Source: Actinomycetes bacterium
GTDB lineage: Bacteria; Actinomycetota; Acidimicrobiia; Acidimicrobiales; Ilumatobacteraceae
NCBI GenBank assembly: GCA_021414085.1
Contig: JAIOPC010000014.1
Coordinates: 248,001-312,000, forward strand
Reading direction: 5' to 3'
Length of the DNA: 64,000 nucleotides
Part shown: positions 19,998 through 36,635 of the stretch, piece after piece
How the letters are laid out: the number at the start of each line of letters is the position of its first letter
How positions within the stretch are numbered: position 1 is the first letter of the stretch
Position numbers and translations under genes: made by a program
The notes under the pieces: model-generated
Seen by the model: the letters and a program-made list of their open reading frames with translations, nothing else
What the model was told of the DNA's origin: nothing
Database searches by the model: none

Positions 19998-21218
19998 TCA
20001 CACGGGGCGGATCGCCTCGGCCGGATCTAAGCGCGCGGCGCGGATAGCTGGCGACACACCGGCAAGCAACCCCACAGCCAACGCCACCCCGGCGCCACCC
20101 GCAAGCGCAGCGATTGGCACGTCGACAACCCAGCCGCGTGAGTTGGCGTAGACGGCCGTCACCACCGCCCCGAGCGTGCAACCGGCGACGCCGCCGAGCA
20201 CGGACAACAATCCCGCTTCGGCCAGGAATTGCGTGAGGATGTGGCGACGGCTTGCGCCAAGTGCGCGCCGCACGCCGATCTCGGCGCGGCGTTCGAGCAC
20301 CGAGATCACCATCACATTCGTGATGCCGACTCCGCCGACGAGCAACGCGACGGCACCAAGTGCGAGCAACAGATTGCGCAACGCCGCATCGGTCTTGGCT
20401 CGCGCCTCCAGTGCATCCGATGGTCGAGAGATGTCGACCTCATTCGGCGACTGCGGGTTCACCGTGCGCGCCAACACGGCGCGAACGTCTGGCACGCGAT
20501 CGGGATCGGCGCGCACGAAGAGCGTGCTCGGCGAAGCGGTCGTGTCGTACAACTCGTCCGCGACCCCATACCCGATCATCGCTGCGCTATCTAGTTCCGG
20601 CGCGAGAGGCGTCTTGGCGGCGATGCCGATCACTGCGAACCATTCGCCATGCCCGTCGCCCCCGGTGATCCACACACGCGGGTGGCGGTCGAGCGACGTG
20701 ATTCCCAGGCGAGCAGCCGCGTCCGCACCGAGAACCACGACTGGCACGTCGGGTGAGGTTTGGTTCAAGAACCTGCCGGAAGCGAGCGAGCCGCGCACGG
20801 TGTCGAGCAGGTTCGAATCGACTGCCATCACCGCGATCCCACCAGTGATGCCGGCGTCCACGTAAGGGCTCCGCCGCACGGTCGCGGTGGTGTACGTCAG
20901 CCCGGCGGCGGCCGTGACCGGACCGATCCTGCCCGCCGTGCGCTTTGCCGTCTCCGGCAACGTGCTTTGATCGCCGAACATGCTCTGGCCCGGCGCTGCC
21001 CGCAGGAGCCCGGTCCCCAACGAGTCGATCTCGGCAAGAAGATCAGCGCGACTAGAAGCTGAGATGCCAACGACCGAGATCATCGAGGCGATTCCGATCG
21101 CGATACCGAGGGCGGTGAGAAGCGTGCGCAGCGGGCGCGTACGTAGACCAACGAAACCTACGCGCACGCCGTCCGCCGGGCGCAGGCGACTTCGTGCTGG
21201 CGAAACGAGTTCAGTCAC
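19998..21218 (-). CDS. MacB-type ABC transporter permease
   Basis: 406 residues from GTG at 21218, overlapping the ATPase stop by 4 bases. The MacB/FtsX topology is clear: a first membrane helix (RTLLTALGIAIGIASMISVV), a periplasmic core of about 210 residues, then three helices around LLLALGAVALLVGGVGITNV, LLSVLGGVAGCTLGAVVTAV and LAGGAGVALAVGLLAGVSPA. The cytoplasmic link ERRAEIGVRRALGASRRHI is the family signature. Such proteins use ATP hydrolysis in the cytoplasm to move a periplasmic adaptor and expel or sense peptides and lipid-like molecules. Confidence 0.92.
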   Translation of the reverse strand: MTELVSPARSRLRPADGVRVGFVGLRTRPLRTLLTALGIAIGIASMISVVGISASSRADLLAEIDSLGTGLLRAAPGQSMFGDQSTLPETAKRTAGRIGPVTAAAGLTYTTATVRRSPYVDAGITGGIAVMAVDSNLLDTVRGSLASGRFLNQTSPDVPVVVLGADAAARLGITSLDRHPRVWITGGDGHGEWFAVIGIAAKTPLAPELDSAAMIGYGVADELYDTTASPSTLFVRADPDRVPDVRAVLARTVNPQSPNEVDISRPSDALEARAKTDAALRNLLLALGAVALLVGGVGITNVMVISVLERRAEIGVRRALGASRRHILTQFLAEAGLLSVLGGVAGCTLGAVVTAVYANSRGWVVDVPIAALAGGAGVALAVGLLAGVSPAIRAARLDPAEAIRPV

Positions 21219-21901
21219 GTGGCCACCACCGTCGAGTCGGCGACGATGCAGCCGTCGCGCATCGTGACTTGGCGCAGAGCCTGCGCGAGGTCGCGGTCGT
21301 GCGTGATCAACACGATGGTCCGCCCGTCGGCGTTCAACTGCTGAAGCAGCGACATGATCGCCGCTCCATTGGCGGAATCGAGATTGCCTGTCGGTTCGTC
21401 GGCGAGCACGATCGCTGGATCAGCGATCAGGGCTCGCGCGATTGCAACCCGCTGACGTTCACCTCCGGAGAGTTTTCCCGGGCGGTGAGTCGCGCGGTCG
21501 GCGAGACCCACCGCCGCCAACATTTCAGCCGCTCGGCGCAAACGTTGCCGCCGAGACACTGCGGCGTACAACAACCCGTCGGCGACGTTCTCCATCGCGG
21601 ACATACCTTCGATCAGATGGAATTGCTGGAACACGAATCCGATTCGTCGGCCCCGCACTGCCGACAACCGGCTGTCGCTGAGTGACGACGTGGCAACTCC
21701 GTCGATCTTCACCGTGCCTGTCGTCGGTCGTTGCAGTGCGCCGATCACATTCATGAGTGTCGTCTTGCCCGAACCGGACGGTCCGACGATGGCGACAAAC
21801 TCGCCTCGTTCGACGCGCAGATCGACGCCGGCGAGAGCTCGGATTGGCGGAGCACCTGGGTACTCCTTGACAACGCTGGTCAGTTCCAACACGGCGCTCA
21901 T
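21215..21901 (-). CDS. MacB/LolD-type ABC transporter ATPase
   Basis: 228 residues starting at ATG 21901, which overlaps the adaptor stop by 4 bases. All nucleotide-binding elements are intact: Walker A GPSGSGKTT, Q-loop FVFQQF, signature LSGGERQR, Walker B IVLADEPTG and the switch histidine LITHD. Sequence type is that of MacB, LolD and bacitracin-type exporters. A much longer open frame continues upstream to 22606, but it is a shadow of the adaptor gene in another frame. Confidence 0.95.
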   Translation of the reverse strand: MSAVLELTSVVKEYPGAPPIRALAGVDLRVERGEFVAIVGPSGSGKTTLMNVIGALQRPTTGTVKIDGVATSSLSDSRLSAVRGRRIGFVFQQFHLIEGMSAMENVADGLLYAAVSRRQRLRRAAEMLAAVGLADRATHRPGKLSGGERQRVAIARALIADPAIVLADEPTGNLDSANGAAIMSLLQQLNADGRTIVLITHDRDLAQALRQVTMRDGCIVADSTVVAT

Positions 21902-22947
21902 GGGACGACCACCGTGTCGCCAGGCTCGATAGCACCGGTCACGGCCACCCAGCCGTCGGCGAACTCGCCAATCTCGACGGCGACGAGGCGCGTTCCATTC
22001 GCGCTCGACGAGTCTGGTACCTCGACTGCGTAACCGCCCTCGGCGAGAGCGAGCAGCGCGTCGGCGGGAACGGCCGTCGCTGCGGCCACGAGAACGTCGT
22101 TCACCTTCACCTTCACAGAGATCCCGTCTTCGACCTCGAGAGCAGCTGTGCTGATGATGATCGGGAATGTGACCGCACCGTCCTCGGCGACCCGTGCCGA
22201 TTCGATTCTTTGCACCGTGCCCGCAACGGTCTCGCCAGTCGGGAGTTCGACGACTACTTGGTCGCCGACCTGAATCAGGCTGAGCTTGGATGATCCGACA
22301 AGTACGCGCACTGATTGTTCGAGCCCCGTCACTTCCAGGCCGGCCGTTGTCGCGGCGGCACCGAGAGCGTCGGCCACATTCGCGATGCGAACCTCGTCGG
22401 GCCAGAAGACGATCTCGCCGATTGCCAGCCGACCGTCCTCGGTCATGCCGGTCGAGCGCTGCATGCGCTTGACGGCGGCGGTGGTACTTGCCGTCCACGT
22501 TTCGTCGACCGTGACCTCGTTGGCGTCGGCGTAGCCCAGCGCGACCAGCGCAGCTTCGAGCTGGGCTACATCGGCACCCTTCGCTCCGGCGGCGAGTGGG
22601 CGCCACTGCGGTCGATCGCCCTCAAGCAACAACACCGGCTTGCCGTCGACCTCGGCCAAAGGCGCGCCAAACTCGATGACGTCGCCGACCGTCGGCAATT
22701 GCGTGATGGTGCCGTTGGCGCTCAGACCCAACTTGCGCTGATCGCCGTGGCCAACTGTTCCGGTAAACGACTCCGTGTTGACCAGGTCGCGCTGTTCTAC
22801 CACCACTGTCGACAATTCGGAGTTGGCGGGATCTGGCGACGTAACGGATGCCGCTGAACCTGCTCCGTCGGCATCGTCACGAGCCACCACGGCTATCGCC
22901 GCCACTGTGGCGACGCACACGCCGCCGATCACGATCGCGCGCCTCAT
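21898..22947 (-). CDS. Periplasmic adaptor with peptidoglycan-binding domain
   Basis: 349 residues from ATG at 22947, overlapping the upstream lipoprotein stop by 4 bases. A signal anchor lies at residues 3-21 (RAIVIGGVCVATVAAIAVVA). A barrel/lipoyl-like segment follows, then a PG_binding_1 domain (AQLEAALVALGY and TTAAVKRMQRSTGM, about residues 128-165), then the beta-barrel and C-terminal parts of an HlyD/MacA-type adaptor, with VGDQVVVELPTGETVAG and AIEPGDTVVVP. It would connect the ABC permease to the wall or an outer layer. No coiled-coil hairpin as long as in MacA is evident. Confidence 0.85.
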   Translation of the reverse strand: MRRAIVIGGVCVATVAAIAVVARDDADGAGSAASVTSPDPANSELSTVVVEQRDLVNTESFTGTVGHGDQRKLGLSANGTITQLPTVGDVIEFGAPLAEVDGKPVLLLEGDRPQWRPLAAGAKGADVAQLEAALVALGYADANEVTVDETWTASTTAAVKRMQRSTGMTEDGRLAIGEIVFWPDEVRIANVADALGAAATTAGLEVTGLEQSVRVLVGSSKLSLIQVGDQVVVELPTGETVAGTVQRIESARVAEDGAVTFPIIISTAALEVEDGISVKVKVNDVLVAAATAVPADALLALAEGGYAVEVPDSSSANGTRLVAVEIGEFADGWVAVTGAIEPGDTVVVP

Positions 22948-27863: not shown

Positions 27864-28583
27864 TTGCATCGGCAACTCGCGTCGGCCGGCACTCCGGAAC
27901 GAGCGGCCGGCGAACGCGCGTACCTGAAGAGTGACTTACAGCATCTCGGTACGACAGTTCCCGCAATGCGCGCAATCGTCAAGGCGTGGTTGCGCTCTCA
28001 CGAAGCTGCGCACGGCAAGCTGACCCACGACGAGTTGTTCGCCCTCGCTGACGCGTTGTGGGCACAACCAGTACACGAGCGGCGCATGGCTGCCGTGGAG
28101 TTGTTGGTCGCCAAGCCGTCGTTGATCGCCCTCGAAGATGTGCCTTGGCTCTTCAACACGTTGCGCGATTGCCGAACGTGGGCGCTGCTCGACCCCATCG
28201 CCGGATCTGTCGTTGCCGACCTCGCGGCGCGTGAGCCCGACGACGTGCTTGAGCACCTCGACCGCTGGGTCCACGATGGCGACTTCTGGATTCGTCGATC
28301 GGCTGTCCTCGGTTTGCGCACCCTGTTACGGCACGATGAACAGCTCGATCGGTTCTTCTCTTACGCAACCGAGCTGCTTCCCGAGAAGGAGTTCTTCATC
28401 CGCAAGGTGATCGGCTGGGTTGCGCGCGAGGTCGCGGCACGACACCCCGCTCTCGTTTCGCGCTGGTTGCGCGACAACATGGCATCGATGAACTTGGTGA
28501 CGTTGCGCGAACCGATGCGCCGGCTCGCAGACGCGGCCGAGTTGCGCGCCCTCTACGACAAGCGGCGGAACAACGCGGGGTAG
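27864..28583 (+). CDS. DNA alkylation repair protein, AlkD-type HEAT-repeat fold
   Basis: About 239 residues. The family pattern is present: LASAGTPERAAGERAYLKSD, the HEAT-like helices LVAKPSLIALEDVPWLF and the glycosylase-region features DCRTWALLDPIAG and WIRRSAVLGLRTLLR. AlkD-type enzymes remove alkylated purines without base flipping. The start is uncertain. TTG at 27864 is the first normal start after galU, but a CTG at 27837, overlapping the galU stop as CTGA, would give MNATEVAELL, a natural-looking N-terminus. The 3' end overlaps the convergent gene by 31 bases. Confidence 0.85.
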   Translation: MHRQLASAGTPERAAGERAYLKSDLQHLGTTVPAMRAIVKAWLRSHEAAHGKLTHDELFALADALWAQPVHERRMAAVELLVAKPSLIALEDVPWLFNTLRDCRTWALLDPIAGSVVADLAAREPDDVLEHLDRWVHDGDFWIRRSAVLGLRTLLRHDEQLDRFFSYATELLPEKEFFIRKVIGWVAREVAARHPALVSRWLRDNMASMNLVTLREPMRRLADAAELRALYDKRRNNAG

Positions 28584-29131
28584 TCGACGACGAGACCGAA
28601 CTCGTCGACCTCGAACTCTGCGGTTGGTCCGTTGTCGCGTTCGTGCTGCCACCGATGAGCGTCGACTCGGGTGTAGCGATGCAAGTCGGATCGCACTTCG
28701 AGCGTGTCTGGGTCGACCGTCACTACCGGCAATTCTGCGGTGTCGCCATCGAGCAGCGGCAGTCTTCGGATCGGCAACGTTTGCGTCATCGGAGTGCACG
28801 CCATGTCGATGTCGTAGCAACCATCGAGCTCTGTGCGATGTGCACCGTTCATCTCGCCCCAACGACCGCTGCCATCGGTGGCTAGCCACAGGTCGGGTTC
28901 TTCAAGGTCCCGGAACAGTAGGAACTGGCGAACCTGCCACGAGGCGCTGAGCCGTAACACGTACTGAATGTGCTCGCGCCCGGGCGCATCGCCGACCGCG
29001 CCACTGATGGTGAACCCTTCGTTCTCCCACCGGATGGTCGCCGTCTCAAGCCCGTCGCCGGCCCAAGTCGTCCACTGCACCTGGTGCCCTTCCGGGCTGT
29101 GAGCGGCCGTTGGTGCAATGTATGAACTCAC
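28553..29131 (-). CDS. Putative glycolipid-binding protein family
   Basis: 192 residues from GTG at 29131. The pattern VQWTTWAGDGLETATIRWEN, then YVLRLSASWQVRQFLLF and DLWLATDGSGRWG, fits the bacterial putative glycolipid-binding family (Pfam Glycolipid_bind type), whose members begin with a W-x-G/L-E-x-A motif. No signal peptide is present. It starts 9 bases after the amine oxidase stop on the same strand and is probably cotranscribed with it. Biochemical role unknown. Confidence 0.72.
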   Translation of the reverse strand: MSSYIAPTAAHSPEGHQVQWTTWAGDGLETATIRWENEGFTISGAVGDAPGREHIQYVLRLSASWQVRQFLLFRDLEEPDLWLATDGSGRWGEMNGAHRTELDGCYDIDMACTPMTQTLPIRRLPLLDGDTAELPVVTVDPDTLEVRSDLHRYTRVDAHRWQHERDNGPTAEFEVDEFGLVVDYPALFRRLS

Positions 29132-29140
29132 GGCCGCGAC

Positions 29141-30571
29141 CTACCAACCCGCGTCGATGAACTTTTGAAGCTGGGCCAATGCCGCCATCTTCACGTCGGC
29201 ATCAGGTCGTTGCGCCCATTCGCGGGCAACGGGACCACCGACGAGTGAGAGCAGAACCGGTCGACCAATCAACGGCAGCAAGTTGAACCACTCGCGGTAG
29301 GGCGCGCCTGGGTCGCCCGCGATGTTCCACATCAGTGAGTCCTCGGTCCAGAAGGCCTCTTCGAACACGAACCAGACCTTGTCGAGCAACCCGAAGCCGA
29401 TGCTGTCGATTGCCTCGTTCTTTGAGTCTGGCAACGGCGGCTCGAACTCGATCGACCCTGACTTCAGCACACCCAGCGGCACTGTGATGACGACGCGATC
29501 GCCTTCAACTTCGTTGCCGTTCTCGTCGAGGACGTGCACCCCGTTGGTGCCCCATTCGATTCGGCGCACGGGCCGCAACGTCTCGATGTTGAGGCCCTCG
29601 GCCATTTCCTGAACGATCGCGTCGTACCCGCCAAGCACGATGAGATCGTCGCCTTCTGTCCCTTCCTCTTGACCCCACCATGTCGACAGTTCGGAAGCAT
29701 CCGCACCGTATTCCGCTGCGATTTCGCTTGCGTCGACGTGGTCGAGTGCTTCGGGGTCGACGTCCTGCGCCGCGCCACTGCGCTCGATTGCAGCCGCCAG
29801 TGAAAGATCGAACTCCTCATCTTCGGCCCAATCGATTGCCGCAGCGATCGCTTCCGTGGCCGGTTGCACAAAACCTTCGATGTCGTCAATCCGCTGACCG
29901 TCGGCTGCGAGGACCGATTGCTCGTCGTAATCAAACGGCGCTACAGCGACGGCGAGTTCGGCGAGTTGATCGGCAAGGTCACTTGCAGTGACGTCGTGAA
30001 CCCACGATGCACCCAATTCGACGATCAGATCGTCAACCGCGGTCACGCTGTGCACTCGTCCGCCGACCCGATCCCGTGCTTCGATCACCACGACATCGAA
30101 TCCATCGTCGGCGAGCTGTCGGGCGGCGGCAACTCCGGCAGCGCCTGCGCCGACGACTACGACCCGCTCACCATCGCTGGCTTCCGCTCGCACCTCCGCA
30201 GCGACTCGTCGCCCCGACTCTTGCGCGCCATGCACCGTTGCCGGACTGTCGGACGCTGTCGCCTCACCAGCGAAGAAGACTCTCTTGCTGCCTGCCGGGT
30301 CGCTCAACGGGGCAGCGAGCACGACTCGCATTTCCGGCGTAGCCCCGACGGCCATATAGCTGTACGAGCCGAGGGCGAATGGATCGCCCGACCACGAAGT
30401 TCGAATCATGGCGAGCGGCTGCGGTACCGGCTTGCTGCCGCCTTCGACTCCGGCAGTGACCGCGGAATCGTCGTCGGAATCCTCAGTGCAAGCTGCAACG
30501 GCGGCGATCGAGGCAGCGCCCCAAAACGCTTGTCCCAGTAGCCGTCGCCTCGAAGTGTGCTCGCCATTCAC
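29141..30571 (-). CDS. Flavin amine oxidase with circularly permuted domain order, Tat lipoprotein
   Basis: 476 residues from GTG at 30571. A twin-arginine signal SRRRLLG is followed by lipobox AVAAC with cysteine 28, predicting a folded, lipid-anchored exported protein. In ordinary amine oxidases the dinucleotide fold comes first and the FAD-contact tail last. Here the tail comes first: TSWSGDPFALGSYSYMAVGA (about 58-77) and FFAGEATASDSPATVHGAQE (99-118), closing at about residue 127. The dinucleotide fold then starts: RVVVVGAGAAGVAAARQLAD (136-155) and EARDRVGGRV. The protein ends FIDAGW, exactly where the tail segment would normally begin. One uninterrupted frame carries all of this. Substrate unknown; probably an FAD-linked amine or polyamine-like oxidation outside the membrane. 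Confidence 0.9.
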   Translation of the reverse strand: MNGEHTSRRRLLGQAFWGAASIAAVAACTEDSDDDSAVTAGVEGGSKPVPQPLAMIRTSWSGDPFALGSYSYMAVGATPEMRVVLAAPLSDPAGSKRVFFAGEATASDSPATVHGAQESGRRVAAEVRAEASDGERVVVVGAGAAGVAAARQLADDGFDVVVIEARDRVGGRVHSVTAVDDLIVELGASWVHDVTASDLADQLAELAVAVAPFDYDEQSVLAADGQRIDDIEGFVQPATEAIAAAIDWAEDEEFDLSLAAAIERSGAAQDVDPEALDHVDASEIAAEYGADASELSTWWGQEEGTEGDDLIVLGGYDAIVQEMAEGLNIETLRPVRRIEWGTNGVHVLDENGNEVEGDRVVITVPLGVLKSGSIEFEPPLPDSKNEAIDSIGFGLLDKVWFVFEEAFWTEDSLMWNIAGDPGAPYREWFNLLPLIGRPVLLSLVGGPVAREWAQRPDADVKMAALAQLQKFIDAGW

Positions 30572-35248: not shown

Positions 35249-36085
35249 CTACACGGTGATCGTCAATGCCACGGTCCAGCCGGTCTCGTTGCTGCCGGTC
35301 GCGGCGCCGAGTTCCTGGTCCCATCCGTCGCTGAAGACGTTGTCGGTTGCGAGTGACACTCGAGTCAGGTTGGAGACGCTTGCCTCGTAGCCGCTCGCCG
35401 CGTAAACGAGCTTGCACTCGGCTTCTGGCATCGCAATTTGCGAGGTCTTGATGAGGTGGGCGGTACCGAGCGCGTCGTCGATGCTGGGGTAGACCTCGAA
35501 GTGGATGTGCGGCCAGCGGCCGTCGTAGCAGCCCGGCCAGATGCTCTGGAACGTGACGGTGCCGTTTGCGTCGGCTTCACCAACGCCACGCAAGTAGTTG
35601 GCGTCGGGGGCGGTGTACATCGAGTAGCGACCGTCCTTGTCGGCGTGCCACAGATACACCGCGCCGCCGGCTAGAGGCTGACAGCCGTTCGCTGAATCGA
35701 GCACGGTCAATTTGATGGTGGTCGCAACTCCCTGGGCGACGCCGACGAAGTCGCCGAAGCTGCCCGTGATGTCTTCGCGAATAACGGCGGGGTCGGCGAG
35801 AGCGTTCGGGCCATTTGAGCCGTCGCCCGGGAAAGGGCCACCAGTCTCCGACGGCACCGCGGTCGTGCACTCCGTGGTGCCAGTCGTGTCGCCTGTCGTG
35901 GCCGCTGTCGTGGCCCCTGTCGAAGGACTGGTTGTGGCGGTCGAGTCCTTCGAAGACGCCCCGCAAGCGGCGAGGAATGCGAGCGCGCATCCGCCAGCGA
36001 GCATCTTCAATGCCTGGCGGCGCTGCACAACGCGGCCAATGTCGAAGGCAAGTCCGCGGTCGAAGTCTTCAAGTGTGTGATCCAT
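35249..36085 (-). CDS. Exported intradiol-type dioxygenase, Tat lipoprotein
   Basis: 278 residues from ATG at 36085. A twin-arginine-like signal (QRRQALKML, residues 21-29) leads to FLAAC, a lipobox with cysteine 41, then a Ser/Thr linker. The catalytic domain opens SETGGPFPGDG. It has the iron-ligand pattern of intradiol dioxygenases: a tyrosine in LWHADKDGRYSMY, then CYDGRWPHIHFEVY with the second tyrosine and two histidines. Such enzymes cleave catechols between the hydroxyls, but exported relatives have few proven substrates. TAGCGT lies 7 bases upstream. Divergent from folK with 58 bases between the starts. Confidence 0.88.
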   Translation of the reverse strand: MDHTLEDFDRGLAFDIGRVVQRRQALKMLAGGCALAFLAACGASSKDSTATTSPSTGATTAATTGDTTGTTECTTAVPSETGGPFPGDGSNGPNALADPAVIREDITGSFGDFVGVAQGVATTIKLTVLDSANGCQPLAGGAVYLWHADKDGRYSMYTAPDANYLRGVGEADANGTVTFQSIWPGCYDGRWPHIHFEVYPSIDDALGTAHLIKTSQIAMPEAECKLVYAASGYEASVSNLTRVSLATDNVFSDGWDQELGAATGSNETGWTVALTITV

Positions 36086-36092
36086 ACATCGA

Positions 36093-36098
36093 ACGCTA
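36093..36098 (-). promoter_or_regulatory. -10 box for exported dioxygenase
   Basis: TAGCGT on the minus strand, 7 bases before the ATG at 36085. It supports that ATG over an in-frame upstream ATG at 36205, which would also hide the Tat signal. Confidence 0.42.
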
Positions 36099-36143
36099 TG
36101 CCGACGATCACAGGGCGAGATTTGGCACCGGTAAGAGGCAGGT

Positions 36144-36635
36144 GTGAAAGCGCTCGTTAGCGTCGAAGGGGTGAAGCATGTGGCATTTCTGGCGCTCGGG
36201 AGCAATCTGGGTGAACGCGAGCACTACCTGCGATTCGCGGTGAGCGAGCTCGGTGGTGTGGTCGCGATGTCGCAGGTGTTCGAGACCGAGCCCGTTGGAG
36301 GCCCCGACGGTCAGGACGCGTACCTCAACATGGTCGTGAAGGTGGAAACCGCACTCGATCCGTACGAGCTGATTCGTCATTGCCAGCGTATTGAGGAAGA
36401 CGCGCAGCGTCAGCGGGTGGTGCACTGGGGCCCGCGCACGCTCGACATCGACTTGTTGTTCTTCGACGACCTGCACATCGACAGCGACGCGCTGACGATT
36501 CCGCATCCGCGAATCTTCGAACGTCGCTTCGTGCTGGCCCCACTCAGCGAGGTGGCGCCGGAATTGTGCCCTCCCGACTGGGAATCGACTCTTCCGCCCG
36601 CCGAAATCACGCCACGTGGTGCGTTACGCCCGTGA
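36144..36635 (+). CDS. folK: 2-amino-4-hydroxy-6-hydroxymethyldihydropteridine diphosphokinase
   Basis: 163 residues. Transfers pyrophosphate from ATP to hydroxymethyl-dihydropterin in folate synthesis. Family marks: FLALGSNLGEREHYLRFAV, QVFETEPVGGPDGQDAYLN, and the signature GPRTLDIDLLFFDDL. The GTG at 36144 is preceded by AGAGG; a GTG at 36171 would begin at the conserved KHVAFLALGSN and is a fair alternative. Ends 8 bases from the convergent FolP-like gene, a folate-like pairing, although that protein may not act in folate synthesis. Confidence 0.95.
   Translation: MKALVSVEGVKHVAFLALGSNLGEREHYLRFAVSELGGVVAMSQVFETEPVGGPDGQDAYLNMVVKVETALDPYELIRHCQRIEEDAQRQRVVHWGPRTLDIDLLFFDDLHIDSDALTIPHPRIFERRFVLAPLSEVAPELCPPDWESTLPPAEITPRGALRP

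Follow-up and report, generated by a model that had tools for sequence, protein, structure and literature searches.

The locus and its predicted lipoprotein leader

The window, that is the whole stretch of 64,000 nucleotides analysed here, carries on its reverse strand a gene for a flavin amine oxidase of 476 residues. This open reading frame starts with GTG and has no internal stop between 29141 and 30571. Reading from the N-terminus of its product, we found a twin-arginine motif, a hydrophobic stretch, a lipobox, the tail, the joint, the GAGAAG motif and the remaining oxidase, the C-terminus being FIDAGW. The N-terminal part contains TSWSGDPFALGSYSY, FFAGEAT and ATVHGA, residues that usually end flavin amine oxidases. 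The features of the locus are the following:

29141..30571 (-): permuted flavin amine oxidase gene, 476 aa (ORF reading, Pfam and HMMs)
30488..30571 (-): Tat signal with lipobox, residues 1-28, from SRRRLLG to VAAC, Cys28 (sequence reading and regular expression)
30191..30409 (-): former C-terminal FAD-contact tail, now N-terminal, residues about 55-127 (Pfam positions 368-442; tail HMM, residues 56-127)
30167..30190 (-): joint between the old C-terminus and the old N-terminus, residues about 128-135 (8-residue gap between the matches of the normal-order HMMs)
30134..30151 (-): GxGxxG dinucleotide motif GAGAAG, residues 141-146 (sequence)
29156..30166 (-): Rossmann start and substrate domain, the former N-terminal and middle part, residues 136-472 (Pfam positions 2-366; main HMM; structure match to LSD1 277-736)
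29378..29380 (-): Lys398, aligned with the lysine of LSD1 GFGNLNK (2hko alignment)
28553..29131 (-): gene of the PF06475 glycolipid-binding family, 9 bases downstream of the oxidase

In LSD1, this residue of GFGNLNK is K661, the flavin-site lysine. The positions of GAGAAG and of the terminal FIDAGW are those given by a previous sequence-only reading of this DNA. That reading had also placed the tail ahead of the dinucleotide fold, which is correct, and had limited it to residues 58-118, which is too short, since HMM and Pfam matches give about 55-127. Likewise, the short linker proposed between the old C- and N-termini is present, but the gap between HMM matches moves its bounds from about 127-135 to about 128-135.

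The order SRRRLLG, hydrophobic stretch and lipobox VAAC at Cys28 corresponds to the pattern of Tat lipoproteins. Both elements previously reported on the new N-terminus, the twin-arginine signal and the lipobox, can be read in the sequence and support the prediction that the oxidase is a Tat-exported lipoprotein. Among its relatives, a regular expression for Tat plus lipobox matched 26 of the 39 permuted and 12 of the 42 normal-order ORFs; this comparison is rough, as the 13 permuted ORFs lacking the pattern include L013, which fits by eye, and L063, which is cut by a contig end, while several normal-order leaders are missed (e.g. L066, L078 and L095) and the match in the normal-order L001 is probably spurious. 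Six permuted copies (L016, L018, L019 and L021-L023), as well as L067, are devoid of a Tat-lipobox leader. In the normal-order L025, L068-L070, L072 and L083, a similar leader precedes the Rossmann strand at a short distance. As leaders of this kind also occur in close relatives with the normal order, the leader is a shared trait and export is not the novelty. What changes in the permuted form is the part of the oxidase that bears it.

Another gene of the window, at 35249-36205 (-), apparently encodes a further exported lipoprotein: its product has a leader resembling a twin-arginine signal, LAAC as a lipobox-like element and a weak match to PF00775 (dioxygenase C-terminal domain, 4.3e-08).

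Neighbors of the oxidase gene in the window include moeA, moaA, moaC and genes for a nucleotidyl transferase, a DNA alkylation repair protein and the glycolipid-binding protein. Comparison of 20 regions surrounding permuted copies, each some 10 to 17 kb long, indicated that the flanking genes of the window are common to the region of G001 only, setting aside an unspecific match of the ORF 21215-22606 to four regions; the PF06475 neighbor is likewise present only in that region. An ATP-binding-cassette-like ORF family links seven regions, including that of the window, and aldehyde-dehydrogenase-like ORF families are found in three (both named by eye). No conserved operon was found around the permuted oxidases in these 20 regions and, therefore, the neighbors indicate no substrate.

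Order of the two blocks, cut and joint

The PF01593 profile recognizes the 476-residue protein with 241.5 bits, against a curated cut-off of 19.8. On the coding strand, positions 368-442 of this 443-position model precede positions 2-366, which reverses the linear order usual for the family, where the tail is C-terminal. The profile is covered once: nothing is duplicated, one interior position is uncovered and the cut lies between positions 366 and 368. GxGxxG, the acidic end of strand 2 and GGR are motifs with assigned roles in FAD binding; all are kept here as G141, G143 and G146, E164, and G170-G171-R172. Alignments with two LSD1 chains (2hko) also gave a swapped order, residues 136-200, 298-450 and 38-127 of the query corresponding to residues 109-172, 380-542 and 559-654 of the chain.

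In order to avoid circularity, the HMMs used to test the order (tail and main block) were built from the 42 normal-order ORFs alone. Positions 2-68/69 of the tail HMM match residues 56-127 (78 bits) and positions 2-337/338 of the main HMM match residues 136-469 (309 bits); neither HMM detected a second significant copy of its block in the window protein. Taken alone, the tail scores 84 bits, and the highest score reached among 2000 shuffles was 12.9. Each block is complete, single and swapped, the former termini are linked by an 8-residue joint and there is one cut point, as expected for a circular permutation. Together with the intact FAD motifs and the many normal-order homologues, this single and complete coverage supports a true circular permutation, as had been proposed from the sequence.

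The same organization is conserved in the 39 permuted ORFs. According to the normal-order HMMs, the joint has 5-12 residues in all of them. The tail starts at HMM position 1-3 in 38, the exception being the truncated L063, and the main block stops at position 334-338 of 338 in 37, the exceptions being L054 (stop) and L026 (contig end); 2-23 residues trail the end of the main block in 37 of the 39. Furthermore, the 36 copies that are intact at both ends all share the cut, which agrees with the earlier proposal that the new ends fall at one point. By eye, normal-order relatives read ...LRxIYG-xxIPDP-xxxxTRW across the cut region, and in several permuted relatives the chain stops close to LRxIYG and begins again close to PxPxxxxxTxW. 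All 39 permuted ORFs have G141, G143, G146, E164, G171, R172, A101, G115 and A116; W60 and G170 each occur in 38 of them. Position 103 is a glutamate in 34 of them and an aspartate in five; position 398 is a lysine in 31, the other eight including two gaps.

The AF2 model of the full-length protein is weak (mean pLDDT 60.7, pTM 0.57), with pLDDT values below 50 for residues 1-75, including the first part of the tail, and averages of 92-96 for residues 81-100 and 121-140 and of 73-74 for residues 101-120. For the mature chain, the mean pLDDT is 69.3 and the pTM 0.69; within its tail, residues 15-28 (including the GSYSY stretch) and 62-64 are below 50, and the remaining tail blocks average 55-87. 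The input alignments were shallow (13 and 11 rows, mostly pieces) and had no paired signal between blocks, because tail and main pieces sat in separate rows. Residues 86-426 of the mature model align with LSD1 277-736 (Z 18.5, rmsd 4.2, 331 aligned) and residues 88-428 with maize PAO (1b37) 5-380 (Z 18.4, rmsd 4.7, 332 aligned), and the Foldseek query-normalized TM ranges from 0.57 to 0.62 among the best 50 matches listed. Mature residues 81-428 make up most of what these structural alignments span; the tail lies outside them, presumably because such programs follow sequence order, and we infer that it would pack on the dinucleotide fold. When a profile of 15 permuted proteins was compared with the PDB, LSD2, LSD1, spermine oxidase, maize polyamine oxidase and acetylpolyamine oxidase took the top ranks. 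Alignments in which MAFFT misplaced tail or main blocks were left out.

Relatives, trees and GNAT fusions

A relative was considered as permuted if its match was collinear through tail, joint and main block, since a normal-order protein is unable to give such a match. Sixteen of 61 relatives have the permuted order: 15 with a collinear match (own genome of the window included) and G028, which is cut by a contig end. Permuted copies were also found in at least 22 of 395 genomes of the class (E <= 1e-25) and at least nine of 396 genomes of the phylum (E <= 1e-60), these counts being lower bounds as four candidates were scored per genome; among the nine, G577 was recognized from a shorter match and the order of its ORF. 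The searches overlap, and the distinct genomes with the permuted order amount to 40, all from the phylum. The order sought in related genomes, as the sequence-only reading had advised, is present in dozens of them. Fetched ORFs with both blocks comprise 39 distinct permuted and 42 normal-order ones according to the HMM order test, a split that is not a frequency because ORFs were fetched as best matches. Sixteen further fetched ORFs without a tail match were left out of the order classes, and the fortieth permuted copy, L140 (G264), lies outside the set of 39. One permuted oxidase, L054 (G236:C42), has an internal TAG and is either a decaying copy or the result of a sequence error.

The search was extended to the phyla of L039 (a Bacteroidia genome; Bacteroidota) and L045 (a Clostridia genome), with 4 to 11 candidates scored per genome, so that counts are again lower bounds. 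In the former, matches at E <= 1e-40 came from at least 13 of 198 genomes; each of the 14 matches starts at profile position 67 or beyond, and the six that were fetched all have the normal order. In the latter, none of 149 genomes matched in a search run without a positive control. Among eight mixed genomes or records, six matched: the best oxidase match has the normal order in three plasmids, G787 and G791, and the sixth, G788, was left out of the order classes. Seventeen plasmid records matched, and the three that were checked have the normal order. Phage records gave no oxidase match, and two further scans of viral contigs for extra homologues gave nothing new. Pseudomonadota were sampled by one plasmid, and the permuted order is known from one phylum within this sampling.

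Permuted and normal-order copies are intermingled in trees. The permuted label needs 11 changes in a 79-row tree from which the short L026 and L054 were left out. It needs nine in a 65-row tree, without 14 distant or long-branched normal-order rows, where 0% of bootstraps have a single change and a minimum of two is imposed by well-supported branches. A tree of 36 rows chosen by hand needs six changes, and 0% of its bootstraps have one. In AU tests, a single clade of permuted copies was not rejected (p 0.107 with the same 14 rows left out; p 0.176 in the 36-row set). The common cut fits either one origin or a strong structural preference.

Moreover, a GNAT acetyltransferase domain is encoded in frame ahead of the permuted oxidase in four copies:

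L020:973-2754: GNAT-permuted oxidase fusion
L024:1318-3057 (-): GNAT-permuted oxidase fusion
L026:3-1238 (-): GNAT-permuted oxidase fusion
L140:7020-9047: GNAT-permuted oxidase fusion

The GNAT domain is supported by Pfam PF00583 in three of them, and the fourth was found with an HMM made from those three. A search of the 395 genomes of the class with the fusion alignment (E <= 1e-60) gave matches covering GNAT and oxidase in G022 (2-581) and G264 (5-364). The own genome of the window carries a lone GNAT gene (L147, G000:C13:110583-111089) that is homologous to the fused GNAT and ends at the fusion joint. In animals, acetyltransferase and acetylpolyamine oxidase are separate proteins; the fusion is possibly a polyamine acetylation-oxidation enzyme. 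A broader scenario, which we put forward tentatively and regard as rather doubtful, would be that the permuted branch, large in the phylum, was made several times or switched to and fro, and that its freed N-terminus became a docking point for modules, a lipid anchor in most copies and GNAT in one subgroup. One chain could then acetylate and oxidize the same (poly)amine.

Interpretation and comparison with known flavoproteins

Our data make it likely that the gene encodes a natural circularly permuted FAD amine oxidase of the LSD1/polyamine-oxidase type, whose pieces would reassemble within one chain and which would be loaded with FAD, exported by Tat and anchored at Cys28. Judging from the usual route of permutation, a normal oxidase was probably first duplicated in tandem or fused and then lost its outer halves; no intermediate was seen. 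The old C-terminal tail comes first, a linker of about eight residues leads to the Rossmann strand and the chain stops at the former start of the tail. Tail and main block most likely reassemble as an ordinary two-domain oxidase, and with two complete blocks and a short joint the permuted chain should still be able to enclose FAD. The Tat system exports folded proteins. From this and from the leader, FAD would probably be loaded in the cytoplasm before export of the folded enzyme and lipid anchoring at Cys28. The sequence-only reading further conjectured that permutation might free the anchored end from the vicinity of the active site. The enzyme could oxidize an amine or polyamine to an aldehyde, ammonia or an amine, and hydrogen peroxide, a polyamine or another amine being our best guess for the substrate because of the similarity to LSD1 and polyamine oxidases.

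Alternatively, neighboring oxidase genes may have been fused, the two blocks complementing each other between chains in a domain-swapped dimer, where the FAD site of a chain is closed by the tail of its partner; a fusion of tandem copies would produce the same order of tail and main block, and Tat is able to export oligomers. However, this appears unlikely, since a joint as short and as nearly constant in length as that of all 39 permuted ORFs is expected if the old termini adjoin in one chain, and the model with a pTM of 0.69 was obtained with a single chain. We consider it very improbable that the protein is a decayed or non-catalytic derivative that kept the fold for another role. The absence of lysine at the flavin-lysine column in eight of 39 permuted copies and the internal stop of L054 would fit such a decay, but the FAD motifs of both blocks are near-invariant across deep divergence, and the window protein retains Lys398, GSYSY and FFAGEAT. 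Finally, a rearrangement at about 30180-30220, named beforehand as the case that would undo the permutation, was checked and rejected: the same junction occurs in 40 distinct genomes, with flanks that differ in 19 of 20 regions. Since independent genomes share the junction, an assembly or sequencing artefact swapping the halves has a negligible probability.

A one-chain permuted oxidase would be of interest since flavin amine oxidases (MAO, LSD1 and polyamine oxidases) are a heavily studied family. Permuted and normal-order relatives, side by side, constitute a test bed for folding, FAD loading and Tat export, and the GNAT fusions offer a concrete hypothesis of a one-chain polyamine acetylation-oxidation enzyme. 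The swap is hidden wherever domain searches give 'Amino_oxidase' alone. In agreement with the sequence-only reading, which knew of no such arrangement, neither permuted flavin amine oxidases nor GNAT-amine oxidase fusions were found described in the literature searched, whose coverage leaves out most subscription papers and preprints; the search also covered Tat-lipoprotein amine oxidases. As far as this literature goes, a permuted chain is apparently undescribed in the family.

The oxidase domain of LSD1 and LSD2 (2hko, 4gu0) gives the best sequence match and is among the best structure matches, sharing the FAD motifs, the GSYSY stretch and the aligned lysine. However, these eukaryotic proteins have the normal order, and they carry extra domains that are absent from the window protein. 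Polyamine oxidases (1b37, spermine oxidase 7oxl, acetylpolyamine oxidase 5lae and Fms1 1rsg) are the same two-domain flavin oxidases but, unlike the window protein, have the normal order with a C-terminal tail; to our knowledge, maize PAO, spermine oxidase, acetylpolyamine oxidase and Fms1 are not Tat lipoproteins. Normal-order bacterial Tat-lipoprotein amine oxidases (L025, L039, L068-L070, L072 and L083), mostly from the phylum of the window, share the domain and a Tat plus lipobox leader of this type, and some of them group with permuted copies in the tree. They differ from the permuted form by a leader placed on the Rossmann strand and a C-terminal tail.

LucY belongs to a protein family other than amine oxidases. 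Engineered circular permutants of this FAD protein have been described and show that such a flavoprotein can withstand permutation (PMC4408115). Furthermore, the sheets of monoamine oxidase and electron transfer flavoprotein are described as mutually permuted, a case that concerns two folds compared and not a permuted amine oxidase (PMC2916828). Whereas the LucY permutants are artificial, the permutation of the window oxidase is natural.
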